From: Patescibacteria group bacterium
GTDB lineage: Bacteria > Patescibacteriota > Minisyncoccia > Minisyncoccales > JANBVM01
DNA length: 38,623 bases
NCBI GenBank assembly: GCA_024239015.1
Contig: JANBVM010000005.1
Span: forward strand, 1-38,623
Direction: 5' to 3'
The notes under the pieces were generated by a model. That model did not search any database. It saw only the letters and a list, made by a program, of their open reading frames with translations, and was not told the origin of the DNA. Both the position numbers and the translations under genes were made by a program. Shown one piece after another: positions 5,845 through 38,428 of this stretch; positions within the stretch are counted from its first letter, which is position 1, and each line of letters opens with the position of its first letter.

Positions 5845-6384
5845 ATGAGCGATCTAGCATGGATGGGATTGAAAAATGATAGATCCCCTCTTCCTAAAGA
5901 TCAGCAAATTGCTTTGGTTAATGCAATTACAGAAGAGATTTTAGATACTAGTTCAGTTGATCTTACAACCATTGACGAAGAAGAGGAAGACATTGATGAA
6001 GCAGAAGATACTGGAATAAGTACTAATGATTTTGATGATATTGACAAAATTCACCCTTATGAAGCCTTGAAACTGGTTTTGGGTACATTACGAACAATAA
6101 AACAAAGGGCAGATATATATTCAGACAAAGACAACGCAGATTGGGGAAGAATTTCTCTTTCCGCCGTAAAAGAAGCACGTCATGCAGTAAAAGACATTCT
6201 TCCCATATGGGAAGAGATGGAAAATCGATTTAATGAAAAGAAGGAAGAATGGGTTAATCAATTAATAGATTTTAATTGTAAATATATTACAAAAGAGTTT
6301 GGAGAGGGTCAAATGTTACATTATATGGAAACACTTAATGAATTTAGAAAATCAGTAGAAGAAGAAAATAAAAAAATCGCCTAA
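5845..6384 (+). CDS. Acidic hypothetical protein
   Basis: 179 aa ORF, acidic linker then helical domain; last gene of plus-strand block. Confidence 0.65.
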   Translation: MSDLAWMGLKNDRSPLPKDQQIALVNAITEEILDTSSVDLTTIDEEEEDIDEAEDTGISTNDFDDIDKIHPYEALKLVLGTLRTIKQRADIYSDKDNADWGRISLSAVKEARHAVKDILPIWEEMENRFNEKKEEWVNQLIDFNCKYITKEFGEGQMLHYMETLNEFRKSVEEENKKIA

Positions 6385-6398
6385 CTATAAAGTTAGGC
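6379..6398. terminator. Convergent-junction hairpin covering stop codons of both flanking genes
   Basis: GCCTAACT-ATAA-AGTTAGGC, 8 bp; plus stop 6382-6384, minus stop 6393-6395. Confidence 0.7.
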
Positions 6399-6632
6399 TG
6401 AACAAAATTTTCCCAAATGTTCAAGAGCAAGTAGATATCTCGCTCTTTTCATCGATTTTGCTCGATCTTTGGGTTTTCCTGCATCGTAAGTTGAAAGAGT
6501 TCCTAGACATTTATTACAAACAAAATTATATTCTTCGTTACCAATATCTTTTTCTTCGTAGTATTCTTTCAACTGTTTAATTTTTTTCGTATTACGCTTG
6601 TAATAATTATGATCAAATTTTTCGTTTGACAT
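6393..6632 (-). CDS. Small protein with a CxxC pair
   Basis: 79 aa from ATG 6632 (MSNEKFDHNYYK...FVCNKCLGTL); longer ORF in track overlaps the upstream gene. Confidence 0.65.
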   Translation of the reverse strand: MSNEKFDHNYYKRNTKKIKQLKEYYEEKDIGNEEYNFVCNKCLGTLSTYDAGKPKDRAKSMKRARYLLALEHLGKFCSA

Positions 6633-6634
6633 TA

Positions 6635-6665
6635 CCCCAAAAGGGGATAATCTAAATAGATTATC
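6635..6665 (-). promoter_or_regulatory. Intercistronic hairpin plus mini-hairpin
   Basis: GATAATCT-AAAT-AGATTATC (6646-6665) and CCCC-AAAA-GGGG (6635-6646) just before ATG. Confidence 0.7.
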
Positions 6666-7221
6666 ACATTTTAAAAAAATCAATAGGAATGAATGCTTTA
6701 AATCCCAATTTTGACAATAATTTGTAGGTTTTATTCTTTTGCCGACCATGATCAGAAGGTGATTGATTTGCTAACCAAAATATTTGCATAATATCAAATT
6801 CTTTGGTTTGGCACATCAATTTGAAATGTTTTTCTAATCTTTCATCAGAAAAGTTAATTTCAACTCGTTTCTCTGTTGGATCAAATCTTGGTGGTGGAGT
6901 TATTTTCCTTAAACTTTGTGCTCCTTCATCATAGAAATCATTTTCTCCAACATAGATATAAGGATTAGCATTTTCAAATACCCACCGAGTAGGATCTACA
7001 ATTGTATCATCCTTTTTTCGAACCCAACCATGTCTAGAAACTAAGTTCCCCGCAAACATTGATTTGGGATGAATGTTTCCCGTCCACAACCCATAAACGG
7101 CAATACCGTCAATTATTTTATGCAATTCAAAAAGCGTTGCTATATAATAACATTGACCTATCCATTCATCGGTCGTTTTATTGATTTTCTTTTCGATTTC
7201 GGAAATAATTAATTTCTTCAT
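6664..7221 (-). CDS. Candidate transglutaminase/papain-like fold protein (Cys-His-Asp order)
   Basis: GQCYYIA ... RHGWV ... IVDPTRWVF spacing resembles transglutaminase-like C/H/D core. Confidence 0.5.
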   Translation of the reverse strand: MKKLIISEIEKKINKTTDEWIGQCYYIATLFELHKIIDGIAVYGLWTGNIHPKSMFAGNLVSRHGWVRKKDDTIVDPTRWVFENANPYIYVGENDFYDEGAQSLRKITPPPRFDPTEKRVEINFSDERLEKHFKLMCQTKEFDIMQIFWLANQSPSDHGRQKNKTYKLLSKLGFKAFIPIDFFKM

Positions 7222-7225
7222 CTTA

Positions 7226-7257
7226 CCCCGAAGGGGAGCAACCTAAAAAGGTCACTC
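7226..7257 (-). promoter_or_regulatory. Intercistronic hairpin plus UUCG-type mini-hairpin
   Basis: mRNA GAGUGACC-UUUUUA-GGUUGCUC then CCCCUUCGGGG, then TAAG-ATG. Confidence 0.7.
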
Positions 7258-7262
7258 TATCT

Positions 7263-8720
7263 CTATCTCTCAAAGATTTCAGGATTGCTTAATGCTAATA
7301 CAGTACAGTTTGCTCCAAGTTTTGCTAATCTATCTACATAATCTCCACTTAAATGAATTGTATCGCTAGAATAGGATTGATTGTCATGTCCAAGTTCATG
7401 GAGAATTAACTCCAATATTGATTTAACACTATTATCAAACCATGATTTACCAAGTCTTCCAACATTAAATGTTAAGATTGAACCATCATACATTGCTAAT
7501 GTATTTACGCCTTTATTATCGATAAAATCTACTTGGATTTTTTTTCCAAGTAATCGACTTCCAAGAGTTTTGGTAAAACTTTCAACCCATTTCATGCCTT
7601 CAGTCTTATTAATTGTTCGCAGATATTTTCCATCCGTAAAAGATGTAGAATATGCAGAGCTAGAAGAATGTACAAATCCTGATGATCTAGCTCGTTCCCG
7701 AATTGTGGGATCGAGTGTGCGTGGATGCACAATTTGTTTACCATCAAGTATCGCTTGCTCATTTGCTCTTGCGTCAGGCGACCACAAAACTGCTTTTGGA
7801 TACTTTCGTGTCCAAATGTGTTTAAAAGTCCTGTCATCAATGTTCTTTGATGAAAGAGCTTCATTTACCCAATTCTGTGATCGATCCTCTTCAGTGAGCA
7901 AACTTGCGACAACATTTGCACAAGCCCCTCTGACTTCTTTGAGGTATTTTGGAGAGATTGTATCTCTCTTAGTATCTAATGGTACTTTCTGTTGAATGTC
8001 ATAGGAGAACCTATCTTCTTCCAGTTTTTGTACAGGAATACCCATCTCGTAAATCCAAGCTTCTTTTTCTTCGTAGACAAAGATCTTGGTATTTCGTCTT
8101 GGGATAACCTTTTTTGTGTTCTCATCGAGAAACCATGTAGGCAATATAGCAGATGCAACTTTTAAAGGTTCAATATATTCAAGATTATCTTCAAATAGAA
8201 ATTTTAATTCATCTTTCCAATCAATTTTGTAATAAATATTAATTCCTTTAGGAATTTTTACTCGCTGAATAAAATCAGCAAAATATTCCATAGTTTCGAT
8301 ATCGAAATCTATATAGAAAAACAGATTAGATCCTTCTGTTGTTTTGGTTCCTGAATTGTAAGTTCTTGTTCCATCTTCATTGAAATATACTATTCCAGTA
8401 GTGGATAATAATTCCGCGTGTTTGGAATGAGACAATACAATTTTTTCACCCTGATTAAATCGACCTCTAACCTCTGCGAGATGTCGCTTTGGTGTGTGTC
8501 GAAACAACGTAAAGGAATCAGATAAATCTGCAAATCCTTTGGGAGCATTATCAAGTGCTTGAATCGATGTTGGAGTAACTACAATTTTACCAATTGTAGC
8601 TCCATTTCGTTGCTCGTCTAGTATGTTTGCCAACAGTTCTCGAAGTGAATGTCTTACAGGAAAAATATCTCTTAATCCCTCAACAGAAACTTCAAACCAT
8701 TGATCAGATGTTTTTGTCAT
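7263..8720 (-). CDS. GHKL (Hsp90/histidine-kinase-type) ATPase with C-terminal HExxH metallopeptidase-like motif
   Basis: N-box RELLANILDEQ, LDNAPKGFADL, RGRFNQGEK; C-terminal ILELILHELGHD; ATG 8720 (the track start is a TTG 9 nt upstream). Confidence 0.75.
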   Translation of the reverse strand: MTKTSDQWFEVSVEGLRDIFPVRHSLRELLANILDEQRNGATIGKIVVTPTSIQALDNAPKGFADLSDSFTLFRHTPKRHLAEVRGRFNQGEKIVLSHSKHAELLSTTGIVYFNEDGTRTYNSGTKTTEGSNLFFYIDFDIETMEYFADFIQRVKIPKGINIYYKIDWKDELKFLFEDNLEYIEPLKVASAILPTWFLDENTKKVIPRRNTKIFVYEEKEAWIYEMGIPVQKLEEDRFSYDIQQKVPLDTKRDTISPKYLKEVRGACANVVASLLTEEDRSQNWVNEALSSKNIDDRTFKHIWTRKYPKAVLWSPDARANEQAILDGKQIVHPRTLDPTIRERARSSGFVHSSSSAYSTSFTDGKYLRTINKTEGMKWVESFTKTLGSRLLGKKIQVDFIDNKGVNTLAMYDGSILTFNVGRLGKSWFDNSVKSILELILHELGHDNQSYSSDTIHLSGDYVDRLAKLGANCTVLALSNPEIFER

Positions 8721-8733
8721 CTTACCCAAAGGG

Positions 8734-8757
8734 AGCAGAAACTAAAAAGTCTCTGCT
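8734..8757 (-). promoter_or_regulatory. Intercistronic hairpin
   Basis: mRNA AGCAGAGACU-UUUU-AGUUUCUGCU, 10 bp, starts right after stop codon at 8758-8760. Confidence 0.75.
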
Positions 8758-8922
8758 TTATTTCAAATCTCCATCTTCTATTTCATAGATAATCTGATCA
8801 ATAAGATCATTCATGTTCTCATTATTATTGAAGCCGCCACAGGCGCCCACAACGATTGTTTGATCATCCCACTGATTTTGTAGTTTTTTGAGAAGATTTA
8901 ATTTTTCTGTTGTAGTTAACAT
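8758..8922 (-). CDS. Small acidic protein, 54 aa (not in ORF track)
   Basis: MLTTTEKLNLLKKLQNQWDDQTIVVGACGGFNNNENMNDLIDQIIYEIEDGDLK; flanked by hairpins and TAAG-ATG. Confidence 0.7.
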   Translation of the reverse strand: MLTTTEKLNLLKKLQNQWDDQTIVVGACGGFNNNENMNDLIDQIIYEIEDGDLK

Positions 8923-8931
8923 CTTATGGGT

Positions 8932-8963
8932 ATCAAACCGATTCTAAAAAGAATCAGTTTGAT
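8932..8963 (-). promoter_or_regulatory. Intercistronic hairpin
   Basis: mRNA AUCAAACUGAUUCU-UUUU-AGAAUCGGUUUGAU, 14 bp. Confidence 0.8.
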
Positions 8964-8965
8964 TT

Positions 8966-9244
8966 TTATGTTGCGGTAACTCCAAGATGTTTCAGAACCA
9001 AATTTAAAGCATTAACAGTGATATAACTTGTTAATTTTTTAAAATCATAAGGAAGCAAATATCGTTCTTTTTCAATCCATTCTTTGAAATGATATCGATA
9101 TATTTCTGTTTTGATAAATGGATTGAAAGCAAATTTTTTCTTCTGCTTCTCAAAATTATCTAGAAATTTATCCCTTTGGTCTTTGAAATCCATCGTTTGT
9201 TGATACCGGGTTTCAAGTTCTTTAGTATATTCTTCTAAAGTCAT
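8966..9244 (-). CDS. Hypothetical helical protein
   Basis: 92 aa from ATG 9244 with TAAG-ATG context. Confidence 0.65.
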   Translation of the reverse strand: MTLEEYTKELETRYQQTMDFKDQRDKFLDNFEKQKKKFAFNPFIKTEIYRYHFKEWIEKERYLLPYDFKKLTSYITVNALNLVLKHLGVTAT

Positions 9245-9257
9245 CTTACCCAAAGGG

Positions 9258-9281
9258 AGTAGATATTTAAAAATATCTACT
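9258..9281 (-). promoter_or_regulatory. Intercistronic hairpin
   Basis: AGTAGATATT-TAAA-AATATCTACT, 10 bp perfect; contains stop 9277-9279. Confidence 0.75.
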
Positions 9282-9468
9282 TATCTTCTTTAATGTTATC
9301 AATCGTTATGGTTGTACTATAAACGTGTGCTTTGGCAGTAGCTTCACATTTAAGGTCGTTGCATTGCACCGGCACTTCAATGGTCACTTCACCACCAACA
9401 TTCCACATTTCGACTTCCATTTCATCATTATAATGATTGATCCATTCGTGTTTATGTTCTTCTGACAT
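9277..9468 (-). CDS. Small hypothetical protein
   Basis: 63 aa MSEEHKHEWINHYN...; between two hairpins. Confidence 0.65.
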   Translation of the reverse strand: MSEEHKHEWINHYNDEMEVEMWNVGGEVTIEVPVQCNDLKCEATAKAHVYSTTITIDNIKEDK

Positions 9469-9472
9469 TACT

Positions 9473-9501
9473 GCTCAAAAGAGCAAACTAAATAGTTTAC
9501 T
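9473..9501 (-). promoter_or_regulatory. Intercistronic hairpin plus overlapping mini-hairpin
   Basis: AGCAAACT-AAAT-AGTTTACT (9482-9501) and GCTC-AAAA-GAGC (9473-9484). Confidence 0.7.
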
Positions 9502-9715
9502 TTTGAGTTCCACATTCTTGACATTGCGAATAGCTGTATCTATCTACATGTGTACTTCCTTCAATATAAGAATGCTTGGTGTCTTTTTTACATTTATTAC
9601 AAAATTCTTCATATACGTCAGTGACTTTACTCCATGTATTATCTTCTACACATTGTTGAGCCCAAGTTAATGGAGATGGTTCATAATAATCGTTGTCATC
9701 ATATTCATCAGACAT
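9497..9715 (-). CDS. Small zinc-ribbon protein
   Basis: 72 aa, CNKCKKDTKH...CQECGTQK. Confidence 0.7.
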   Translation of the reverse strand: MSDEYDDNDYYEPSPLTWAQQCVEDNTWSKVTDVYEEFCNKCKKDTKHSYIEGSTHVDRYSYSQCQECGTQK

Positions 9716-9729
9716 CTTACCTGAAATCA

Positions 9730-9751
9730 GAATGATCTCAAAAGATCATTC
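9730..9751 (-). promoter_or_regulatory. Intercistronic hairpin
   Basis: GAATGATCT-CAAA-AGATCATTC, 9 bp perfect, contains stop 9746-9748. Confidence 0.75.
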
Positions 9752-10492
9752 ATTAGTAGATTCAAGATATTTCTTGAGTAAATCAAATGTTGTTTTAACA
9801 ATAGATCGCCAGTGTTTTCTTGAAGATCCTTCACAATTATGAACCATACTTTCTGCAAACGGTATTTCTTTATTATTTTCACACCAATAAATAAATCCTT
9901 TATAACTAGGTATCCATCCCATTTTATAGGCAATCTGATATTCGCCCGGTTTTGGTATTGGTGGTAGATAATCATCATCATACAAAACACTTTCTTTGGG
10001 TCGGTCTATCTTTCTATTTTCAAGAAGATGCCCTTTAAGTCTATAATGACATATTAATTCCCATTCACGCTCAATTGTATCATTTTTATCTTCAAAAAAT
10101 TCGCAACTTATTATTTCAAAGGTTTTATTTTGTTTTTTCCAAAATTGTTTTTCGTGCTGATCTATTCTTGCAGAAAAATCACCACTATATCCTATATATA
10201 TTGAGTTTTCAATATCTAGTGTATATACTGTAAAATTATATTTTTTGGATTCTTCTATCCATAACAAATCTGATGCGGAAAAATTAAACGGATCTCTGAA
10301 TTTTCTTTTGGTTGGGGAGTATCCTAAATTATAAGTAATTCCATTTTCTCTTTTCCATTGTTCAAAATCAAATCCTGATATGTTTATCCATTTATAGACA
10401 GCTTGCCTAGTAACACCATGTTCTTTAGCAATTGTTGCTACATTTCGATACTTATCAAATAAGTGTTGTAATTCCTCTTTAGTTTTACTCAT
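9746..10492 (-). CDS. GIY-YIG-like nuclease with N-terminal helix-turn-helix
   Basis: HTH: ATIAKEHGVTRQAVYKWI; GIY-YIG-like: FTVYTLDIENSIYIGYSGDFSARIDQH ... EREWELICHY. Confidence 0.7.
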   Translation of the reverse strand: MSKTKEELQHLFDKYRNVATIAKEHGVTRQAVYKWINISGFDFEQWKRENGITYNLGYSPTKRKFRDPFNFSASDLLWIEESKKYNFTVYTLDIENSIYIGYSGDFSARIDQHEKQFWKKQNKTFEIISCEFFEDKNDTIEREWELICHYRLKGHLLENRKIDRPKESVLYDDDYLPPIPKPGEYQIAYKMGWIPSYKGFIYWCENNKEIPFAESMVHNCEGSSRKHWRSIVKTTFDLLKKYLESTNE

Positions 10493-10510
10493 AAGTATAA
10501 TACTGATTTT

Positions 10511-10561
10511 AGTTTACATAAAGTTTACTATTGTAAACTTGTCAACTGTAAATTTGTCAAC
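10511..10561. promoter_or_regulatory. Candidate operator: clustered direct and inverted repeats upstream of HTH/GIY-YIG gene
   Basis: agtttac (10511, 10522), GTTTAC-TATT-GTAAAC (10523-10538), 15-nt tandem tgtaaa(c/t)ttgtcaac (10532-10546, 10547-10561). Confidence 0.6.
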
Positions 10562-10588
10562 CATAAATTACACATTTATGTGAGGAAT

Positions 10589-10610
10589 CTCCCACTTAAA
10601 AAAGTGAGAG
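10589..10610 (-). promoter_or_regulatory. Hairpin at gene end
   Basis: mRNA CUCUCACUU-UUUU-AAGUGGGAG, 9 bp, abuts end of CDS at 10611. Confidence 0.65.
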
Positions 10611-10790
10611 TTAATAATCAACGCTCTCCATTATTTCTTTGATATCATCATCCCATTCAGCAGTCCAATCTTTTAATAGTTTTTTGACTTTAATTTTATT
10701 GGATAGTTGTAGAGAAATAGATATTTTCTTCAGAGATTGATTTATTTCCTTTAAGTATCGAACGATTTCTCGTTCAAGTCCAGTGGGCAT
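10611..10790 (-). CDS. Small hypothetical protein
   Basis: 59 aa from ATG 10790 (MPTGLEREIVRYLKEINQSL...); the longer track ORF overlaps the upstream gene. Confidence 0.55.
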   Translation of the reverse strand: MPTGLEREIVRYLKEINQSLKKISISLQLSNKIKVKKLLKDWTAEWDDDIKEIMESVDY

Positions 10791-10801
10791 ACTTATGTAG
10801 G

Positions 10802-10831
10802 ATAATCCCCACCTAAAAAGGTGAGGATTAT
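10802..10831 (-). promoter_or_regulatory. Intercistronic hairpin
   Basis: mRNA AUAAUCCUCACC-UUUUUA-GGUGGGGAUUAU, 12 bp, includes stop 10828-10830. Confidence 0.8.
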
Positions 10832-10989
10832 GTTTCGTACCCAATAAACCATTTTCGATCTGAAGTAACTTCTTCTTCATCATTAAGATTTTTTAATGCA
10901 TGAATAAAAGAAATTAATAATTCTAGAGTATTAGGTGGCAATTTTTTCATAAAGTTTGTTTGTACTTCAGGATAAAATTCTGCTTTCAT
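10828..10989 (-). CDS. Small protein, 53 aa (not in ORF track)
   Basis: MKAEFYPEVQTNFMKKLPPNTLELLISFIHALKNLNDEEEVTSDRKWFIGYET; TAAG-ATG start context. Confidence 0.7.
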   Translation of the reverse strand: MKAEFYPEVQTNFMKKLPPNTLELLISFIHALKNLNDEEEVTSDRKWFIGYET

Positions 10990-11000
10990 CTTACAATTAT

Positions 11001-11028
11001 TAAGCCCTACCCATAAAGGCAGAGCTTA
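11001..11028 (-). promoter_or_regulatory. Intercistronic hairpin
   Basis: mRNA UAAGCUCUGCC-UUUAUG-GGUAGGGCUUA, 11 bp, includes stop 11026-11028. Confidence 0.75.
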
Positions 11029-11265
11029 TTTGATTTCTTCTAATACGTCTTTAAATATTTTTATGTTAGCTTCATTAATAGCAATAGTATGTTCGAGATC
11101 ATCTTTATCTTCAGCATCACATAAATCAAGATCTTCATTTAATAATTTTAAATCTTTACCTAAATTTTTAGATAGATAATTCCGAAAAGCCATTACTACA
11201 TGATATTTTGAACCTAACGAAAAACGAATAGAAATATCATTGTTTTGATGTTTGGTTACTTTCAT
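11026..11265 (-). CDS. Hypothetical protein
   Basis: 79 aa, TAAG-ATG start context. Confidence 0.65.
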   Translation of the reverse strand: MKVTKHQNNDISIRFSLGSKYHVVMAFRNYLSKNLGKDLKLLNEDLDLCDAEDKDDLEHTIAINEANIKIFKDVLEEIK

Positions 11266-11278
11266 CTTATGAGCATCA

Positions 11279-11302
11279 AGCCCTACCTAAACAGGTAAAG
11301 CT
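11279..11302 (-). promoter_or_regulatory. Intercistronic hairpin
   Basis: mRNA AGCUUUACC-UGUUUA-GGUAGGGCU, 9 bp, follows stop 11303-11305. Confidence 0.7.
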
Positions 11303-13480
11303 CTATCTCTTTTGTCGTTTAAAGATCTTATTCAGTTCTTTCATCGAAGATTTATCATTGGCTGTTGCATAAAAGATTGTAGAATCAATCACGCTAAATT
11401 TAGTAGAGTGATTACTCACATACAGGTGTGCTATTTCATGACAGGCAAATTTTACAAACTTAAGTTTTTTCGCCAATGGTGGATCGAAAATCTTGGGTAT
11501 TGCAGACTCAGAAATTGCTACAATATCTTTGATAGTACATCCCTTACTTTCTTCATCATGTGCAAAATTAACTGCGGGTATAATATACGTCAAAAGTTTA
11601 TTAGGTTCTTCAGAGAAGTTCCTTATAACCAATTTCATAACTTTCTTCCAAGCAACATATCCCTTAGCAACTCTCTCAATTAATTGAGGACTGTTCTTAA
11701 TCTGATTAAATCTTTTTCGGGATTTTTTATCCACTAAACATAAAATTCTAGTGCCGTTCTCTGAGATTAATTCTTCATCATTAAGATGTTTCAAAGTCAA
11801 TTGATGAGATATTTTGCTTGCTTGTTCTTTAGGCATAAATTGCTTAAGAACACCAAAAAATTTCTCATCATCTTTTTCATCATCTTCATGACCATTAATC
11901 TCTTGGTCAGGATATCCTTCTTTTTCTTTCTCAATAGAGAAATCGTCATCAGGTTCAGAATACTTAGGAATCTTTTCTTCTGCTTGTTGTTTCATTAATC
12001 GAAACTGGTCTTTTACTTCTGTTGATACGTCAATTATTACCTTTTGTTTTTCTTCAAGTGTCCAACTTTCTGTTTCGGTTGGAAACCTTGCATAATACAG
12101 ATGTAAAGGATTAATCAATATTATTAATGATTGATTCTCGATTAAACCACTGACAAATAAATCTTGACTGAAATTTATCCATCTACTAAATTCAGAGTAA
12201 TCCTCACTCAATAAATGAAATAGTCTTGCCTCACCTGTAATTGAACCATTATCTACTAATAAGCCAATTACTTCATGATAAAAGAATTTGTGCTGAACAA
12301 ATCCAAAGCGTTTTTCAAACCAGTCGGAAAAGTCGTTAGGATCATTAAGTTCTTTGAGTTTTAAATGTAAAGCATGTTTATCATATATTTCATATAATGA
12401 TATTACTTCTAACTCATCGAGGTTTGCCTTCAAACTTGAGGATAATAATACTTCAATAAAATGATTAAAGTATTGTATCTCATAATTGATCGGATCTATT
12501 GTCTGATTATCTGTCAATTGATATTGGAAAACATCCATTGCTTTTACAAATATATCAGTAGGAAAGTCTAATTTCTTTCGAATATAGCCTAATCGTTCTC
12601 TAAACAATTTTAGCGTAGATCTACCATAGCTTAATGCCTTATTACTTAATTCTCTTTTTGAAAGATCTTTATTGATATTTTTAACCAATTCCTCAACATG
12701 CCATCTACCATAATCAGTAAATCCATTACGTGAGGTATTTAAAATCTCAGAGTTCGTACATACAACTACAAGTTCTTGAATCAAATTATTTGATTTTATC
12801 GAATCAAGATTTTTATCAATATTAAGAATTCTATAAGCATTGACGTTTGTTAATTTCAAAAGAACTACAAATTCTTGCTGAAAATGATTTTGATCATAAC
12901 AATAATTGCTTTCTCCCCACGTACTTTTATATGTTTGTACATCGAGAGATTTTCTTAGATATTGACAAACCTTTTTTCGATTGAGATATACTTTCCTGTG
13001 GTCATAAATAACCCAACTATCAAGTAGTTTCTCTATTTCTTGAGTTGAAAACTCACTCTTAAATTCGTCTTTCAGTTTTATAGTTACCTTAAATCCATCA
13101 ACAAACCCATTTTGAACAGGGTCATCAATATTTTTATGATCTTTAATAACTAATTTGAGATCTCCGGTTTCGACTATGGTTTCTTTTGATACTCGAAAAA
13201 CAGATACAAATCCAACACCACGATTTAACGTAATATCTTTTTCATCACCTGTTGACATTCCAGTTAATAGATATTTTTCCAATTGATTTTCATTCAATGT
13301 CATTCCATCATTATAAATTGATATTATTCCATTGATGTCATCAGATTGTACCCGAACGTGTTTTGAACAAGCTTCGAGAGCATTAGTTATCAATTCCTTA
13401 AGAGCATTGTGTTCAGCTCCTAATTGTTCAACAAAACGATCGATATCGACTTTATATTTCCATTTTTTGTCGTTGGTCAT
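11303..13480 (-). CDS. Large GHKL ATPase with C-terminal HEIAH metallopeptidase-like motif
   Basis: N-box LKELITNALEA, YNDGMTL, LLTGMSTGDEK..NRGVGFVSVFRVS; C-terminal KFACHEIAHLYVSNH (HEIAH at ~11426-11440). Confidence 0.75.
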   Translation of the reverse strand: MTNDKKWKYKVDIDRFVEQLGAEHNALKELITNALEACSKHVRVQSDDINGIISIYNDGMTLNENQLEKYLLTGMSTGDEKDITLNRGVGFVSVFRVSKETIVETGDLKLVIKDHKNIDDPVQNGFVDGFKVTIKLKDEFKSEFSTQEIEKLLDSWVIYDHRKVYLNRKKVCQYLRKSLDVQTYKSTWGESNYCYDQNHFQQEFVVLLKLTNVNAYRILNIDKNLDSIKSNNLIQELVVVCTNSEILNTSRNGFTDYGRWHVEELVKNINKDLSKRELSNKALSYGRSTLKLFRERLGYIRKKLDFPTDIFVKAMDVFQYQLTDNQTIDPINYEIQYFNHFIEVLLSSSLKANLDELEVISLYEIYDKHALHLKLKELNDPNDFSDWFEKRFGFVQHKFFYHEVIGLLVDNGSITGEARLFHLLSEDYSEFSRWINFSQDLFVSGLIENQSLIILINPLHLYYARFPTETESWTLEEKQKVIIDVSTEVKDQFRLMKQQAEEKIPKYSEPDDDFSIEKEKEGYPDQEINGHEDDEKDDEKFFGVLKQFMPKEQASKISHQLTLKHLNDEELISENGTRILCLVDKKSRKRFNQIKNSPQLIERVAKGYVAWKKVMKLVIRNFSEEPNKLLTYIIPAVNFAHDEESKGCTIKDIVAISESAIPKIFDPPLAKKLKFVKFACHEIAHLYVSNHSTKFSVIDSTIFYATANDKSSMKELNKIFKRQKR

Positions 13481-13490
13481 CTTAATGGTA

Positions 13491-13520
13491 ATTACCTAAT
13501 CCTTAAGAGGATCAGGTAAT
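13491..13520 (-). promoter_or_regulatory. Intercistronic hairpin overlapping last codons and stop
   Basis: mRNA AUUACCUGAUCC-UCUUAA-GGAUUAGGUAAU, 12 bp; stop 13496-13498 in 3' arm; competing GGUAAUUACC. Confidence 0.75.
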
Positions 13521-13771
13521 AGCTTTTTTGCTTCTGCAAGAAGTAACTCCGCAACAGTTATCATAAATATAGGATCGTGTTTATCGATATAAAAACCACC
13601 AAGCATATTGGCTGATGTTTCTGAAATACTACCATCTTTTTGTCTCGTTCGATGAATAATTTTCCACGAAACATTAAATTCATTAGTTCTTATAGTCGTA
13701 TGATCTATATCATAAATTTCGTGTCTAGGAGGTAATTCCTTGCGTTTCTTGTATTTTTGTTTTTCAGTCAT
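13496..13771 (-). CDS. Hypothetical protein
   Basis: 91 aa ORF downstream of promoter-like sequence at ~13.9 kb. Confidence 0.6.
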   Translation of the reverse strand: MTEKQKYKKRKELPPRHEIYDIDHTTIRTNEFNVSWKIIHRTRQKDGSISETSANMLGGFYIDKHDPIFMITVAELLLAEAKKLLPDPLKD

Positions 13772-13876
13772 AAATTCACCAAAAAATAGTTTGCCCTAGC
13801 CCACAAAAGCTAGGACAATGAGTACATTAGGCAACAAACCACTTCCACAAGTGAAAGCTCAAATCGGGTTTGTCCC

Positions 13877-13911
13877 TAATTTAATATCTGCTTTCTTTAT
13901 ATATAAACTTT
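13877..13911 (-). promoter_or_regulatory. Class 1 promoter candidate
   Basis: minus: AAAGTTTATATATAAAGAAAGCAGATATTAAATTA; TATA overlaps stop of upstream primase gene. Confidence 0.65.
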
Positions 13912-15225: not shown

Positions 15226-15291
15226 TTAAAAGCTAACAACAGGATAATTATTTAAACTTAGTGAGATTTCTCAAGATAAAAATAAGAAAAT

Positions 15292-15311
15292 GCTTACCTG
15301 AAAAGGTAAGC
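15292..15311 (-). terminator. Terminator-like hairpin followed by U-rich tract
   Basis: mRNA GCUUACC-UUUUCA-GGUAAGC then AUUUUCUUAUUUUUAUC. Confidence 0.6.
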
Positions 15312-15320
15312 AGTCTCTTA

Positions 15321-15563
15321 TTATTCACTTATTTCTAAATCTAAGCCATCATAGGGACTAAGAATTCCTTTTAGTTCAGTTGTACTTGTAAGACCTTCAT
15401 ATAACCAATCATACAAATCATCTTCATTAATTTTTTCTTTTGTTAATTGAAGAAGCTCTTCTTTGAAATATTTTCGTACTTCTGATTCTGATAGTCTTTC
15501 TGAGGAATAGAACTTTAATTCAATGTCCCTAATTTTGACTTTATTTTTATAGAGATAAAACAT
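15321..15563 (-). CDS. Hypothetical protein
   Basis: 80 aa ORF flanked by hairpins. Confidence 0.6.
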   Translation of the reverse strand: MFYLYKNKVKIRDIELKFYSSERLSESEVRKYFKEELLQLTKEKINEDDLYDWLYEGLTSTTELKGILSPYDGLDLEISE

Positions 15564-15566
15564 GTT

Positions 15567-15602
15567 ATTTGGGAAAACCCAAATCTAAACAGATCTGAGT
15601 TT
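15567..15602 (-). promoter_or_regulatory. Two mutually exclusive intercistronic hairpins
   Basis: mRNA AAACUCAGAUCU-GUUU-AGAUUUGGGUUU (15575-15602) versus AUUUGGG-UUUU-CCCAAAU (15567-15584). Confidence 0.75.
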
Positions 15603-15964
15603 CACAAGTTTTTTAGGTAGTCTATAAATCTTTTCACGCCAAAAGCATGAATAGTTGCACAATCAATATATTGAAGTTTACTTTCATTAATAATCTTGTA
15701 AACTTGATATTCACCGTTGCCTACATGAAAAAGTATCACTTGGATATCGGTAAAAAATCGGGTTGAACCCAAAGTTTCACAATCATAATCAATTATCCAT
15801 TTGATTTCTTCTTCTGCATTATCAAGTGTTGTTTCTCTGTAATTAAAATGGTCATCTTCAATAAATTCCCATTGTCCATGAAAGTTTATAGCCCACCAAA
15901 TTGCTTTTTTTCGGAATTGTTTCTTCAAATCAGCAGATAGATCTGATATCGTTGTTGTTGACAT
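15602..15964 (-). CDS. Hypothetical protein
   Basis: 120 aa from ATG 15964 (MSTTTISDLSADLKK...) with TAAG-ATG context. Confidence 0.65.
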   Translation of the reverse strand: MSTTTISDLSADLKKQFRKKAIWWAINFHGQWEFIEDDHFNYRETTLDNAEEEIKWIIDYDCETLGSTRFFTDIQVILFHVGNGEYQVYKIINESKLQYIDCATIHAFGVKRFIDYLKNL

Positions 15965-15977
15965 CTTAGATAAAATG

Positions 15978-16001
15978 TGATCCAACTAAAAAGTTGGATC
16001 A
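15978..16001 (-). promoter_or_regulatory. 5' leader hairpin
   Basis: TGATCCAACT-AAAA-AGTTGGATCA, 10 bp perfect. Confidence 0.75.
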
Positions 16002-16097
16002 GGTGGTTACGGTTGTGTAGTTTTCTTCCTTACCGAACTCTATAAACCATGACACGAAATATTTTTAGAGTTTACTACACTACGCAGGAATTCCTTC

Positions 16098-16134
16098 CTC
16101 AAATAAATATCTGCATACTTCTTATATAAACTTT
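16098..16134 (-). promoter_or_regulatory. Class 1 promoter candidate
   Basis: minus: AAAAGTTTATATAAGAAGTATGCAGATATTTATTTGAG; TATA contains the stop codon of the methyltransferase gene. Confidence 0.65.
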
Positions 16135-22701: not shown

Positions 22702-22710
22702 TGTATTGAT

Positions 22711-27368: not shown

Positions 27369-27389
27369 TTAAGATAAGAATCAAAAAAG

Positions 27390-27702: not shown

Positions 27703-27746
27703 AGATTGTTCTTAATTTAATATCTGTATTTATATTATTTAAGTTT
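27703..27746 (-). promoter_or_regulatory. Class 1 promoter candidate within 44-nt exact repeat
   Basis: identical to 36777-36820: agattgttcttaatttaatatctgtatttatattatttaagttt. Confidence 0.75.
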
Positions 27747-28176: not shown

Positions 28177-28188
28177 AATAAGATCACG

Positions 28189-30874: not shown

Positions 30875-30897
30875 AGTAATTTTAGAGTTCGTGAAAA

Positions 30898-30927
30898 GAT
30901 ATTTAAATCTTATTCCATTTTTTTATT
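30898..30927 (-). promoter_or_regulatory. Class 2 promoter candidate
   Basis: minus: AATAAAAAAATGGAATAAGATTTAAATATC. Confidence 0.5.
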
Positions 30928-33427: not shown

Positions 33428-33981
33428 ATATTTTTGACACCTTTAATTGATAAAAACTGATCAACTGGAATGTCTGCCAAAATACATTCATATAAAACAG
33501 TGACAATAAACTCTGCAAGTACTCCACAAGAATATGGATTAATTTTGTGTGATGGATGAGCGGGATGAAATTTGGTATTAAAAGTTTCTTTAAATTTATT
33601 TTCAAAATCTCTTCCAATTGTAGTAAGATTCTTTTTATGATTTCCTCTATAATTATAAATATCATCATCTTCAATAAATTTGTGTTTAGCTAATAATCTT
33701 TCTCCTTGAAAGAAAAGAACCGTATTTTTAATTCCATGAAAAACCGTTTTTTCATCTGAAACCAACATAGCAGTTGCTGCAATCATTTCATCTGTTTTTG
33801 CAGTAAAATCGACTTCATCAATGACTTTTTTGACATCTTCAAAAAACGTTAAGGTCATTTGGTCTGCGGGTATCTCTTTAAGGTCATCAATCACAATTTC
33901 TTTTAATCGTCTGAAATAGACTTGCATTATAGGATATATTTTATTTTCGTCTTCATCTTCTCTATCAAATTCAAATGCCAT
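33424..33981 (-). CDS. Hypothetical protein coupled to PolB
   Basis: 185 aa ORF overlapping PolB start. Confidence 0.65.
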   Translation of the reverse strand: MAFEFDREDEDENKIYPIMQVYFRRLKEIVIDDLKEIPADQMTLTFFEDVKKVIDEVDFTAKTDEMIAATAMLVSDEKTVFHGIKNTVLFFQGERLLAKHKFIEDDDIYNYRGNHKKNLTTIGRDFENKFKETFNTKFHPAHPSHKINPYSCGVLAEFIVTVLYECILADIPVDQFLSIKGVKNI

Positions 33982-34000
33982 AATTGAATATTAATAAATT

Positions 34001-34029
34001 TAGATTTAAACGTATTGTCATTTTTTTGG
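34001..34029 (-). promoter_or_regulatory. Class 2 promoter candidate
   Basis: minus: CCAAAAAAATGACAATACGTTTAAATCTA. Confidence 0.55.
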
Positions 34030-34040
34030 AAAATAAAAAA

Positions 34041-34064
34041 AAGCTAGACTTTAAAGTCTAGCTT
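34041..34064 (-). terminator. Perfect palindrome/terminator-like hairpin with U-tract
   Basis: AAGCTAGACTTTAAAGTCTAGCTT; mRNA continues UUUUUUAUUUU; includes stop 34058-34060. Confidence 0.8.
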
Positions 34065-34363
34065 GATATTGTTTTGGTCAACGCAATTAGGCTTTCACCA
34101 TATTTTAGTTGCTGCCAAATTGTATGAGTTTCCCTCATTTTCATTCGGAGATATTGATAATGTCGAATAGTAATCCATACAAGCCTTCGCTTTCCAGTTA
34201 CTTCTTTACTATTCCATATATCAATCATTTCTTTAGCAAATTCAGGATCTTCTTTTTCTATTACTGCAAGAGTTATCCCAAATATATCTTCAAGACTTAT
34301 ATTTTCATTATGAAGAGGATCAGGATAATCATCAAACGGTTTTAAGATAAATTGTTCACTCAT
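34058..34363 (-). CDS. Hypothetical protein
   Basis: MSEQFILKPFDDYPDPLHNENISL...; TAAG-ATG start at 34363. Confidence 0.65.
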   Translation of the reverse strand: MSEQFILKPFDDYPDPLHNENISLEDIFGITLAVIEKEDPEFAKEMIDIWNSKEVTGKRRLVWITIRHYQYLRMKMRETHTIWQQLKYGESLIALTKTISS

Positions 34364-34373
34364 CTTAATATCA

Positions 34374-34403
34374 AACAAGCCAATCTTAATAGATCAGCTT
34401 ATT
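34374..34403 (-). promoter_or_regulatory. Intercistronic hairpin
   Basis: mRNA AAUAAGCUGAUCU-AUUA-AGAUUGGCUUGUU, 13 bp incl. 3 G.U; contains stop 34399-34401. Confidence 0.75.
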
Positions 34404-34710
34404 TTCCTGCATAGATTAATTTACAAACATTACATTGCCAAACAACATACATGCCTTTTGGTTGATCTTTGTGTTCAACAATTGTTGAGAAAGAAGGGGT
34501 TTCTTCCTTACAATTATTTTGACACATCATCAATTTTTCTTCACTTTTTCCAGTCAAGAAAAATTTATATTTGCCAACTCTGATCCATTGTGGAGTGGGA
34601 GCCATTGCAAATGCGAATCCGCCTTCAGGCATTTCTGTCGTTTTTGAAATAAATGCTCGTAAAATATCTCTGAGATCTTCTGATTGATTACTCAATTCAT
34701 CATTATACAT
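34399..34710 (-). CDS. Zinc-ribbon-like protein
   Basis: CQNNC...WQCNVCKLIYAGK. Confidence 0.65.
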   Translation of the reverse strand: MYNDELSNQSEDLRDILRAFISKTTEMPEGGFAFAMAPTPQWIRVGKYKFFLTGKSEEKLMMCQNNCKEETPSFSTIVEHKDQPKGMYVVWQCNVCKLIYAGK

Positions 34711-34718
34711 TATGTCAA

Positions 34719-34748
34719 GAAAACCTGACCTTAAAAGATCGAGTTTTC
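34719..34748 (-). promoter_or_regulatory. Intercistronic hairpin (one mismatch)
   Basis: mRNA GAAAACUCGAUCU-UUUA-AGGUCAGGUUUUC. Confidence 0.6.
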
Positions 34749-34778
34749 AATGATATTAGACACTACTTTATCTGCTTC

Positions 34779-35174
34779 TTATAGCTTATCTTGTCTCCAA
34801 TGATAAACAGGAATTTTCTTTTTCGGTGTAGAACCTACAAAGACTCCATCAGCAGGTGTAGTATGTTGTTTCGCAAAACGACATTCCACATATAAGCCAT
34901 CTTCTTTTTCTTGAACACAACTCAATGGAATGTTATTCCATACCCATTTTGAAATTAGTCCTGAACTGGTTTCAAATTCTATTTTCAAATTACAGGCTTT
35001 CTTTTTTCTGCCAAAAGGGATAATCGTAACTTTCGTTACAGTCCCTTTATATCTCCGTTTTATGAGAGAATTAATATGCCAAAAAAATTGTTTCCCGTTT
35101 TTCTTACTTGTAGCTTTAAAACCATTCCATTTCGCATTTTTAGGAATAGGTATGGTGGTCATATATGTTACCAT
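34779..35174 (-). CDS. Hypothetical basic protein, start uncertain (35174 or 35162)
   Basis: MVTYMTTIPIPKNAKWNGFKATSKKNGKQFFWHIN... Confidence 0.55.
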   Translation of the reverse strand: MVTYMTTIPIPKNAKWNGFKATSKKNGKQFFWHINSLIKRRYKGTVTKVTIIPFGRKKKACNLKIEFETSSGLISKWVWNNIPLSCVQEKEDGLYVECRFAKQHTTPADGVFVGSTPKKKIPVYHWRQDKL

Positions 35175-35203
35175 TACGCACAACAATTTAATATTAAAAA
35201 ATA

Positions 35204-35338
35204 TTAAATGGAACCCCGCATCCAAAAAGGACTAACGATCGATCTCCTTAAAGCAATTCTTAGCATTTGGCTTTTACTACTATCTATATACTCTATAGCA
35301 TGAGCCTGTTCTAAATAGCACCATTCAGGGAAGTACAT
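35204..35338 (-). CDS. Possible small ORF, 44 aa (not in ORF track)
   Basis: MYFPEWCYLEQAHAIEYIDSSKSQMLRIALRRSIVSPFWMRGSI between structured leader and next gene. Confidence 0.4.
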   Translation of the reverse strand: MYFPEWCYLEQAHAIEYIDSSKSQMLRIALRRSIVSPFWMRGSI

Positions 35339-35415
35339 CCCAACTCGGAGCGGGGTAGTCCGAAGGTATTTCTACCTTATGCGGGAAACCCCGACACTAA
35401 AAAGTATCGGGTTTC
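35339..35415 (-). promoter_or_regulatory. Structured GC-rich intercistronic RNA element
   Basis: 13-bp hairpin 35385-35415, AAGGUA-GAAA-UACCUU at 35363-35378, further CGGA...UCCG pairing. Confidence 0.6.
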
Positions 35416-35416
35416 T

Positions 35417-36733
35417 CTATGCTTTTATCTTAATCAAAGGTGCTTTGTAAAAAAGATCTCCACCAATTTCTTGGAGTTTTATCCTCTTTTGATAGTTCAC
35501 TGTTGGAACTATTGATGTTACCAGTTGAGCCATGTCATACTGGCTTGGGTTATCTGCTGTAAACAATACATCAACCTTGCACAATTCCTTCATTACTTCA
35601 CCATCTTCAAGTGATAAGGTGTCATATTTTCCGACTAACTTATCAATTTCTTTTGCTGGATCTGCAATTTGTAGTTGTGTAGATTTTTCCATTGCCTCAA
35701 ACATTTCATCACCAAAGTCGGATACTGTTGAATATATAGCTCTACCAAGTAGATCATAAAAGGCTTCTTCATATTGAGTAGGATAACTACTCTTTATGTG
35801 ACTCCACATTGGATTGATCCTCTTCATAACCTCTAACTCATCCCCGACAAATCGTTTGCCAAGAGCTTTTTGAATTAGAGTGGCACAATGACCAAGAAAG
35901 GCATTTTCTGTCTGATGTCGAATTTCAACACAGTCCTTAAAATCTTTAGAGACTGCTCCATTACTACACCAAACTGTCTTTACAAACGGTTGGACTACAA
36001 ATGTTCCTTTCGCAAGAAAATCGTTCTTCATTCGAAGTCCGACTGCTACAATTTGATTCTTCACAAGTGGGATTTCTTTACTTTTATCAGTAAAAAGGAT
36101 ATCAACGGATTGAGTCCCCTTTGCATCCCAATTGACCTCATCAATCACATAATTGACATTGTTTTTGGTTAATTGACCAATAATAGCCAATACCAACAAT
36201 GCAAACTTGAATTTGGTTGGATAGTGTTCTCCGGTCGCTCCCAAAACAGTGTTGTTGTGGGTTCGTAGATTATAAGTATCCATTTTGGGGTTATCTAGTG
36301 CAACTCGTAATGTATCCAACTGTGTTGGAATTCCGTTTCTGACGTATTTATCAGGAGTTTGTGCTTTATACACTGAATGAGAAGCAGGAGCTTCTGATAC
36401 ATTTCTTACCTGAAACATTGTGTCAACACTATGAGGTGTGACTTCTTTTATTTCGCCATTAACAGTTACAAAATAGTTTTCACCTTTTGCGACTTGATTT
36501 TCAACTGTTGCCAATTGAATATCCCTTAAATTGGTCTTGATATCCACGATTTCGCCTTCAAAAATTTCCATATCATTAATAATTCCAAGTTTTTGGTTAT
36601 TATTATTGATTCGATCAATTTCGTTTGATAATGATTTTTCCAAATCATCGTTGCGAGAATCGAGTATAGTTTTCACTCGCGAATTAACTTTTTCGTAATT
36701 AACTCGTTTTAGTTTTTTAGATGTTTCTGTCAT
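35417..36733 (-). CDS. DUF932/TIGR03299-like phage/plasmid protein
   Basis: FVVQPFVKTVWCSNGAVSKDFKDCVEIRHQTENA pattern; TAAG-ATG start. Confidence 0.5.
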   Translation of the reverse strand: MTETSKKLKRVNYEKVNSRVKTILDSRNDDLEKSLSNEIDRINNNNQKLGIINDMEIFEGEIVDIKTNLRDIQLATVENQVAKGENYFVTVNGEIKEVTPHSVDTMFQVRNVSEAPASHSVYKAQTPDKYVRNGIPTQLDTLRVALDNPKMDTYNLRTHNNTVLGATGEHYPTKFKFALLVLAIIGQLTKNNVNYVIDEVNWDAKGTQSVDILFTDKSKEIPLVKNQIVAVGLRMKNDFLAKGTFVVQPFVKTVWCSNGAVSKDFKDCVEIRHQTENAFLGHCATLIQKALGKRFVGDELEVMKRINPMWSHIKSSYPTQYEEAFYDLLGRAIYSTVSDFGDEMFEAMEKSTQLQIADPAKEIDKLVGKYDTLSLEDGEVMKELCKVDVLFTADNPSQYDMAQLVTSIVPTVNYQKRIKLQEIGGDLFYKAPLIKIKA

Positions 36734-36746
36734 CTTATGTAGAAAA

Positions 36747-36770
36747 ACTCGACACTATAAAGTGCCGAGC
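36747..36770 (-). promoter_or_regulatory. 5' leader hairpin
   Basis: mRNA GCUCGGCACU-UUAU-AGUGUCGAGU, 10 bp. Confidence 0.75.
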
Positions 36771-36776
36771 AAAAAC

Positions 36777-36820
36777 AGATTGTTCTTAATTTAATATCTG
36801 TATTTATATTATTTAAGTTT
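36777..36820 (-). promoter_or_regulatory. Class 1 promoter candidate within 44-nt exact repeat
   Basis: identical to 27703-27746; contains stop codon 36809-36811 of upstream small gene. Confidence 0.75.
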
Positions 36821-36967
36821 GTCCACCCATGTATTTTCGCACTGTGCGTTTTTACACTCCACAACAGGATACCTCTGTCCATTAACAAACGCAGTAACAA
36901 TCAAATTTTCTATGTTTTCACTACTACATTCAGGACAACAAACTTCTTTCTGCATTATGGTTTCCAT
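36809..36967 (-). CDS. Small zinc-ribbon protein, 52 aa (not in ORF track)
   Basis: METIMQKEVCCPECSSENIENLIVTAFVNGQRYPVVECKNAQCENTWVDKLK. Confidence 0.75.
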   Translation of the reverse strand: METIMQKEVCCPECSSENIENLIVTAFVNGQRYPVVECKNAQCENTWVDKLK

Positions 36968-36980
36968 ATTAATGGTCAAA

Positions 36981-37004
36981 CCCATGACCTAAAAAGATCA
37001 TGAA
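36981..37004 (-). promoter_or_regulatory. Intercistronic hairpin
   Basis: mRNA UUCAUGAUCU-UUUU-AGGUCAUGGG, 10 bp with G.U. Confidence 0.7.
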
Positions 37005-37005
37005 A

Positions 37006-37461
37006 TTAATGATAACTTGCATAATATTCACCAACAATATCAATTCCATTAGTCATATCAAGCATTCCCATTGTCCATAAAAGAGTATCTCCATTACCAT
37101 ATGAGGGAGTAAATCTAGCATCAATTCCATAAGATCCCTGTTCAGATTGAAGGTCTTTTACGGAAAATTCGCTATCAATATATTTATTGTCCTTAAAGGA
37201 TAGAGTTTTACATGGATAAGGAAGGTTTCTATGAAACATTCTGAAATCTTGCCATTTATCGTGAATATGTTTTTGCAAGTTAGTTTCATTCAATTCAACC
37301 ATTTGTTGTTTTCGAAACTTTGGTTTATAGTCGGTATAGATGATAAAATAGGGTAATATATTCTGTATAACTTTTATACGATTACGAACCCTTTGATCTT
37401 CCGATTGCCATAATCTAGAAACCATTCGTTTGAGATGTTCATTTACTTGTTTTTGTGCCAT
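37006..37461 (-). CDS. Hypothetical protein
   Basis: 151 aa ORF, TAAG-ATG start. Confidence 0.65.
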   Translation of the reverse strand: MAQKQVNEHLKRMVSRLWQSEDQRVRNRIKVIQNILPYFIIYTDYKPKFRKQQMVELNETNLQKHIHDKWQDFRMFHRNLPYPCKTLSFKDNKYIDSEFSVKDLQSEQGSYGIDARFTPSYGNGDTLLWTMGMLDMTNGIDIVGEYYASYH

Positions 37462-37474
37462 CTTATTACTCGAT

Positions 37475-37498
37475 ACCCTTATCTAAATAGATAAAGGT
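37475..37498 (-). promoter_or_regulatory. Intercistronic hairpin
   Basis: mRNA ACCUUUAUCU-AUUU-AGAUAAGGGU, 10 bp. Confidence 0.75.
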
Positions 37499-37501
37499 GG
37501 T

Positions 37502-37726
37502 TTATTGAGTAAATCTCAAAAGCTCAATATGCTTACATGTTCTTGTTTTGAATTTATGATCAAAACAGGTACACGACTCTAATGTAACTAAATATCCCCT
37601 TCGTTCATCACGTTCAGAACGGACAAAATATTGGGTTTTAGTTAATTTTATTGCAAAAATACCTTTTTGGAGCATTCTTGCAGCTCTTTGAGATCTATCT
37701 TTTAATCGTATTTTCGAAATAGACAT
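37502..37726 (-). CDS. Small SWIM-type zinc-finger protein
   Basis: GYLVTLESCTCFDHKFKTRTCKHIELLRF (CxC...CxH). Confidence 0.75.
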   Translation of the reverse strand: MSISKIRLKDRSQRAARMLQKGIFAIKLTKTQYFVRSERDERRGYLVTLESCTCFDHKFKTRTCKHIELLRFTQ

Positions 37727-37738
37727 TACCCCAAATCT

Positions 37739-37760
37739 CCCCATTCTTAATAGAATGAGG
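37739..37760 (-). promoter_or_regulatory. Intercistronic hairpin
   Basis: mRNA CCUCAUUCU-AUUA-AGAAUGGGG; stop 37747-37749 at stem/loop boundary. Confidence 0.7.
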
Positions 37761-37956
37761 GATTTTTAGGTATTGATGTATTGTTTTCAAGAAGAATTTC
37801 GGTATCAGTGATAAGAAACTTAATTGGTGCAAGTTGCAGCAAAAGTGTTCCATCAACATAACGATTTTCTTCTAAAACAAAGAAGTTTTTCAATAATTCA
37901 ATGAATTTGCGTTTTTTCCATTTCTTTTTTCGTTTCTTAAAAGAATTCAATCCCAA
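37747..37956 (-). CDS. Small basic hypothetical protein (TTG start)
   Basis: 69 aa ORF overlapping upstream stop. Confidence 0.5.
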   Translation of the reverse strand: MGLNSFKKRKKKWKKRKFIELLKNFFVLEENRYVDGTLLLQLAPIKFLITDTEILLENNTSIPKNPSFY

Positions 37957-38147
37957 TAGACCCCATTTTGTTTGAAATAGTAGCCAACATGTTCATGAAT
38001 AGAGTGTTCTTTACCTCTATATTTACCATCCCAATCCATTAATTCCTTTTCAGGAATATTTTCTGCTTGAATAGGTCGAGATTTTGGTAAAGGGTAACTT
38101 TGGAAAAAAATTACATTTTCACTAAGTTTGAATTTATGGTTTTCCAT
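37947..38147 (-). CDS. Small hypothetical protein
   Basis: 66 aa MENHKFKLSENVIFFQSYPLPKSRP... Confidence 0.6.
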   Translation of the reverse strand: MENHKFKLSENVIFFQSYPLPKSRPIQAENIPEKELMDWDGKYRGKEHSIHEHVGYYFKQNGVYWD

Positions 38148-38157
38148 TATGTGAGAT

Positions 38158-38183
38158 TAACTCACCCTTAACAAAGTGAGTCA
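38158..38183 (-). promoter_or_regulatory. Intercistronic hairpin; stop codon in loop
   Basis: mRNA UGACUCACUUU-GUUA-AGGGUGAGUUA, 11 bp; stop 38168-38170. Confidence 0.7.
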
Positions 38184-38389
38184 TAATAGTCTTGAGAGCA
38201 GGTACTGCAAAAATCTCCGGGAGGAATACTATCACTGTGTCTACAACAGTTTTCACCCTCTTCAGGATCATAGTTTTCAACTTCCTTAAAATATTCGCAA
38301 TCCGTTCTTCCGCACTCAAAACATATAATTTTATCGATTTTTTTAACAGGGGTAAATCCTGAGAAGATAGTTTTAAATCGCTTAAACAT
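38168..38389 (-). CDS. Small Cys-rich zinc-finger protein
   Basis: CFECGRTDC...CCRH...CSTC; TAAG-ATG at 38389. Confidence 0.7.
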   Translation of the reverse strand: MFKRFKTIFSGFTPVKKIDKIICFECGRTDCEYFKEVENYDPEEGENCCRHSDSIPPGDFCSTCSQDYYDSLC

Positions 38390-38400
38390 CTTAATGGGAA

Positions 38401-38428
38401 TAATCCCAATCTATAAAGATTGAGATTA
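38401..38428 (-). promoter_or_regulatory. Intercistronic hairpin with competing GGGA-UUAU-UCCC
   Basis: mRNA UAAUCUCAAUCU-UUAU-AGAUUGGGAUUA, 12 bp, includes stop 38426-38428. Confidence 0.8.

Follow-up and report, generated by a model that had tools for sequence, protein, structure and literature searches.

Many messages in archaea are leaderless, an arrangement that works for the first gene of a transcript only, and how the internal genes of viral operons get started is, to our knowledge, largely open. This question is raised by the contig JANBVM010000005.1, deposited in a Patescibacteria group assembly and treated here as part of a virus of archaeal type, whose full 38,623 nucleotides (nt) form the window of this study. 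In two regions of its minus strand, amounting to half of its genes, nearly every gene boundary carries a hairpin of the same type, which looks like a dedicated signal to cut or start each message. The best explanation of the sequence data is that these hairpins form a single family of RNA elements that act in cis and would punctuate polycistronic late messages of the virus. That the RNA element itself is real we regard as practically certain; what it does is argued below.

Results

A hairpin family with a fixed loop and a fixed downstream UAA

The minus strand was scanned for hairpins with 4-nt loops, allowing one mismatch, and compared with dinucleotide shuffles of the same strand. This null, proposed in an earlier note on this DNA, yielded far fewer hairpins than the real sequence: 22 hairpins scored at least 21, against a shuffle mean of 1.85 (largest value, 6), and 15 scored at least 23, against a mean of 0.7 (largest value, 2). 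The individual hairpins located by that note were found in place, for example at 9730-9751, 10802-10831, 11001-11028, 34373-34404, and 38401-38428. The loop form U-NUNN-A/G was shared by 28 of the 30 minus-strand hairpins scoring at least 19.5, whereas the other contigs of the bin (about 0.96 Mb) held fewer than one such hairpin per 20 kb; the 60 hairpins counted in the bin-wide scan include the window copies in L001, L002, and L005. We count 28 members in the family, 24 internal and 4 terminal, all on the minus strand.

The 24 internal sites align on the loop centre without gaps. Each has a stem of 8-10 base pairs and a 4-nt loop, with the apex consensus CU-NUNN-AG: the loop-closing pair is U-A in 23 of the 24, the second pair is C-G in 20, and loop position 2 is U in all. 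On the 3' side, a UAA occupies positions +21 to +23 from the loop centre at every site (24/24), about 10 nt past the stem, and a start codon directly follows or overlaps it in nearly all elements, at +23 to +26 with a single exception. Since the UAA is fixed at +21 while the AUG floats, the UAA and not the AUG appears to be the measured site; a UAA ahead of the AUG is not general at the other genes of the contig.

This anatomy departs from the earlier description as stop-codon hairpins. Overlap of the stem or loop with stop codons of open reading frames (ORFs) is real and more frequent (19/28) than the at least 13 cases first claimed, but the upstream stop varies in position from about -10 to +19 nt, sometimes lying 45-132 nt away, and the fixed geometry is that of the UAA and the next start codon. 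Likewise, the hairpins had been described as a conserved shape rather than a copied sequence; the shape is supported by covariation (see below), though the loop and the UAA(G) behind the hairpin also keep their sequence. A T-run follows the 4 terminal hairpins, as in intrinsic terminators, and is absent after the 24 internal elements. Internal elements were listed from the loop-centred alignment and covariance-model scores, and terminal hairpins from the hairpin scan and inspection of T-runs:

38387..38430 (-): internal element, hairpin + UAAG + AUG, 45.6 bits
38143..38186 (-): internal element (UAAUG), 28.6 bits
37722..37765 (-): internal element (UAAUG)
37459..37502 (-): internal element (UAAGAUG)
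36965..37008 (-): internal element (UAAUAUG)
36731..36774 (-): internal element (UAAGAUG), first of its unit, in the leader behind the 36.8-kb repeat
35373..35416 (-): internal element, UAAG then GUA instead of AUG
35170..35213 (-): internal element (UAAUG)
34706..34749 (-): internal element (UAAUG)
34361..34404 (-): internal element (UAAGAUG)
34041..34064 (-): terminal hairpin, T-run follows, no UAA
27382..27417 (-): terminal hairpin, T-run follows; second apex pair deviates from C-G
15962..16005 (-): internal element (UAAGAUG), upstream stop 132 nt away
15561..15604 (-): internal element (UAACAUG)
15282..15321 (-): terminal hairpin, T-run follows
13478..13521 (-): internal element (UAAGAUG)
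11263..11306 (-): internal element (UAAGAUG)
10987..11030 (-): internal element (UAAGAUG)
10789..10832 (-): internal element (UAAGUAUG); sets the next gene's start at 10790, within a longer ORF
10572..10615 (-): internal element (UAAAUG), opens a 15-codon frame only
9713..9756 (-): internal element (UAAGAUG)
9464..9507 (-): internal element (UAAUG)
9242..9285 (-): internal element (UAAGAUG)
8920..8963 (-): internal element (UAAGAUG), 45.4 bits
8718..8761 (-): internal element (UAAGAUG)
7219..7262 (-): internal element (UAAGAUG)
6628..6671 (-): internal element (UAAUG)
6379..6398 (-): terminal hairpin, T-run follows, between convergent genes

Covariation of the stems

Compensatory change was assessed across the 24 internal sites within this one genome. 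Bases were paired in 96.7% of the 240 stem cells, and nine of the ten stem pairs had changes on both sides. The covariation score was 1.006, compared with 0.239 after shuffling, and none of 500 shuffles did as well; when partners were slid as a control, scores fell to 0.12-0.21 (at most 0.213). As stem pairing might itself have driven the choice of sites, a second selection was made by the loop motif and the UAA alone, ignoring the six pairs outside the apex. It returned 28 minus-strand matches, 21 of them fully paired at these six positions, whereas all six further pairs were formed in none of 9 matches on the plus strand and none of 451 in the rest of the bin. Departures from Watson-Crick pairing comprised 25 G-U and a single A-C (p = 8e-7), and the equal-strand symmetry expected of palindromic operators or promoter boxes in double-stranded DNA was not seen. 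This imbalance indicates that the element most likely acts as a sense-strand, single-stranded nucleic acid, most simply mRNA, and not as a DNA palindrome.

Transcription units and promoter-like repeats

The regional contrast reported in the earlier note was upheld with gene calls curated by hand: of the 30 boundaries in 34-38.6 and 6.4-16 kb, 27 have an element, compared with 1 of 20 in the replication core (Fisher p = 9e-10), and when only non-overlapping boundaries in the former regions are counted, 27 of 28 carry one. The 4 terminal hairpins (at 34053, 27400, 15302, and 6389) belong to the same apex class, have no UAA, and close units where no gene follows. The window also contains four copies of a promoter-like repeat of about 40 nt with the core CAGATATTWAWTTRRG, each directly after a stop codon, and no copy was found elsewhere in the bin:

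36777..36820 (-): promoter-like repeat heading a punctuated unit
27703..27746 (-): promoter-like repeat, 44 nt identical to the 36.8-kb copy
16096..16134 (-): promoter-like repeat, degenerate copy
13867..13910 (-): promoter-like repeat, degenerate copy

Each repeat is matched by one terminal hairpin (36.8 with 34.05, 27.7 with 27.4, 16.1 with 15.3, and 13.9 with 6.4 kb), and a first unit, at 38.6-36.8 kb, starts beyond the contig edge. Genes of the core carry TTTAAATA boxes about 25-30 nt ahead of their starts. The transcription units, we infer, fall into an early and a late class, and the punctuating elements belong to the latter. A related yet different leader hairpin, with the loop UUGU, lies at 13791-13818 (-), followed by a Shine-Dalgarno-like GGTGA before the gene at 13496-13771.

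Setting of the window and search for relatives

The window is contig C5 of a 58-contig, 1.03-Mb bin. The bin comprises a set of contigs of about 0.36 GC, one of which carries a 16S gene of bacterial, Patescibacteria type (judged by eye), and a low-GC set of archaeal look that includes an MCM-type replicative helicase and a HerA helicase, indicating a mixed bin. Encoded in the window are a family-B DNA polymerase (PolB) whose nearest relatives are archaeal enzymes, a PriS-like primase (weak match), an ERCC4 nuclease, and a phage-type pair of a MoxR ATPase and a VWA/metallopeptidase protein (28189-30874, minus strand), a kind frequent in phages. We treat it as viral and of archaeal type. Other features are an N6/N4 DNA methyltransferase (16122-18785, minus strand) with a LAGLIDADG domain, probably an intein, inserted ahead of its catalytic end; three tandem copies of a 30-nt repeat at 4433-4522 (+); and operator-like repeats at 10520-10575 (two GTTGACAAATTTACA-like copies and GTAAAC/GTTTAC palindromes), upstream of the gene at 9746-10492, which encodes HTH and GIY-YIG domains.

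The rest of the bin has no copy of the element, and the reading as a host element was rejected. A covariance model built from the 24 sites gave two isolated matches across 243 genomes of the bin's order; one of them (L243:3027-3070), a hairpin that lies between a tRNA gene and glyS and has the same CUUUUUAG apex, was rejected as a single-copy terminator look-alike. The model gave no match in 1,074 genomes (330 + 400 + 344) from three archaeal phyla, a search that had no positive control. When IMG/VR and GTDB genomes were scanned with DNA patterns of the element, the matches listed were all chance or single terminator-like ones; the viral_contigs set was scanned for the element by exact pattern only. 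Rfam had no match in the window, and none at E<=1 in 35170-35440. At the protein level, no relative was found with PolB in viral_contigs, phages, or genome_contigs, with the primase in viral_contigs, with the RecA-like protein in viral_contigs, phages, or the bin's order, or with the 438-aa protein (35417-36733) in phages. Carriers of the MoxR/VWA pair, which include many phages and 80 IMG/VR loci, were rejected as relatives, as they share no other gene and have no hairpin family.

Discussion

How, then, could a hairpin followed by UAA serve a late gene? We give about an even chance to the element being a viral late-mRNA processing signal, cut at the UAA to leave near-leaderless mRNAs and protected 3' ends. 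A loop-recognising factor would bind the hairpin; as no other copies occur in the bin, this factor is probably encoded by the virus. An endonuclease would then cut at or beside U^AA, about 10 nt past the stem, so that the message of the downstream gene begins about 0-4 nt before its AUG, a form apparently used by promoter-proximal genes, while the upstream message would keep a stable 3' hairpin resisting 3' exonucleases. At the end of a unit, the terminal hairpin with its T-run would supply an equivalent 3' end.

Several observations are consistent with this proposal. Shine-Dalgarno pairing is absent at hairpin-linked genes (mean -1.70 kcal/mol, against a background of -1.65) and present at other internal genes (-4.33 kcal/mol; p = 0.017 for the contrast, with small samples), whereas promoter-proximal core genes are leaderless-like (-0.48 kcal/mol). 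The element at 35373-35416 keeps its UAAG with no start codon behind it, which we count in favour of the UAA as processing site, and the terminal copies, closing units without a following gene, represent more than a pure translation signal would need. A precedent comes from Halobacterium, where a strong stem-loop near the processing site is followed by a motif in transcripts that require the RNase VNG2099C (PMC8303175). Among the roles suggested in the earlier note, mRNA processing or 3'-end protection still appears the best option, and the binding of a viral regulator is a further plausible one. Plain stop-to-start coupling is disfavoured, since the distances from stop to UAA (35, 21, 21, 39, and 37 nt) have no common phase.

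Other points weigh against processing at the UAA. The argument for it is drawn from sequence anatomy; Pfam recognised no nuclease in the minus-strand late proteins that were scanned, most of them orphans; the stem base lies about 11-16 nt before the AUG, a spacing that is also compatible with a hairpin at the mRNA exit of the ribosome; and relatives were not found, so that stem conservation is seen within this genome alone. Moreover, what follows the 35373-35416 element may be a broken gene and not a non-coding RNA. In that stretch (35204-35376, minus strand), the element and its UAAG-GUA are followed 38 nt on by a 44-codon frame, suggesting either a broken gene, an odd start codon, or a non-coding RNA; we do not claim a non-coding RNA between 35376 and 35210, where the fold z is only -2.2 and the 44-codon frame fits.

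The main rival, possible but on balance improbable, is a translation-initiation or operator element: the ribosome, an initiation factor, or a viral protein would bind the loop and switch translation from the downstream AUG on or off, making a late-gene regulon. It fits the geometry nearly as well, given that the start codon at +23 to +26 opens a gene of at least 50 codons at 22 of the 24 sites; the lack of Shine-Dalgarno sequences would also agree with it, and the T4 gp43 operator hairpin (PMC3014915) is one precedent from phages. However, the fixed point is the UAA and not the AUG, the terminal copies have no gene to start, one internal element has no AUG, and a repressor with 24 operators would be unusual.

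We consider it unlikely that the signal operates at the level of transcription, each element being a promoter-like or pause/termination site whose sense-strand hairpin forms as transcription proceeds. The loop centre does lie 23-26 nt before the AUG, roughly the distance of an archaeal TATA box and similar to the TTTAAATA boxes of the core genes, and T-runs stand behind the terminal copies. Yet covarying stems that tolerate G-U and not A-C are unexpected for a box in double-stranded DNA, the internal copies have no T-run, and the units are already headed by four separate promoter-like repeats. We give still less weight to generic 3'-end stabilisers, that is, independent mRNA-protecting hairpins at gene ends with the UAA as mere start-codon context. 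The frequent overlap with stop codons (19/28) speaks for them, as do the stem-loops of selective RNA processing and stabilisation (SRPS) in Clostridium, which act in this manner (PMC4423207), but stability alone leaves the fixed loop sequence and the 21-nt UAA spacing (24/24) unexplained, and UAA before AUG is no general start context on this contig. Chance, or a repeat spread by copying, is refuted at the level of statistics by the shuffle tests (0/500 for covariation) and the diverse stems at other sites, even if a few neighbours are alike (8716-8758 and 9240-9282, 84%).

Hairpins that combine parts of this format are known from several systems. The yeast RNase III Rnt1p acts on hairpins with AGNN tetraloops and cuts inside a long stem, and the MS2 coat operator is a hairpin with a conserved tetraloop upstream of a start codon. 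Rnt1p substrates share with our elements a fixed tetraloop, a variable stem, and action at a fixed distance from the loop, but here the fixed site is single-stranded and lies past a short stem. The MS2 and T4 gp43 (PMC3014915) operators likewise place a conserved-tetraloop hairpin upstream of a start codon, but there are one or few of them per single protein and no genome-wide punctuation. Under the "hairpin rule" of Mimivirus, Megavirus, and Pithovirus, viral transcript ends are marked genome-wide by hairpins with stems unconserved in sequence, with RNase III-like cleavage by R343 in Mimivirus (PMC4402537). The stems of the window also differ yet pair, and lie at gene ends in 19 of 28 cases; however, giant-virus loops share no conserved motif, and their hairpins define the 3' end that is polyadenylated, whereas the elements here have a fixed loop with UAA at a set distance and the next start codon behind it. 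Neither an RNase III-like protein nor a poly(A) polymerase had a Pfam match in the minus-strand proteins scanned, and the rest of the virus may lie outside the contig. In SRPS operons such as Clostridium cip-cel, stem-loops between cistrons of one polycistronic RNA mostly have no U-run, as in our 24 internal elements, but they lie near fewer than half of the processing sites with no reported common loop or spacing (PMC4423207), in contrast to the fixed-format hairpin at nearly every boundary here. The Halobacterium salinarum VNG2099C sites are archaeal and also join a stem-loop to a short 3' motif at a processing site, but the motif is CGGCCG, a few host genes are involved, and there is no link to start codons (PMC8303175).

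In none of these nearest known kinds does a fixed loop occur together with a UAA at a set distance downstream and with start codons at almost all boundaries. A full-text literature search for such a hairpin-UAA-start system found nothing, which is weak evidence given its limited coverage. We file the element as hairpin-directed mRNA maturation in a new form, its mechanism being a proposal. Somewhat more tentatively, the hairpin and UAA could form a private viral punctuation code that is read by a virus-encoded factor and splits long late transcripts into individual near-leaderless messages, so that each internal gene of an operon would have a start with no need for a Shine-Dalgarno sequence. 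If true, it would be the first genome-wide system of its kind to be described in an archaeal-type virus, and the hairpin-UAA-AUG format at nearly every boundary would explain the starts of internal genes by one testable rule. The format could also serve as a compact RNA tag in searches for late genes in related viruses and might, should its reader protein be identified, provide a portable part for splitting operons.

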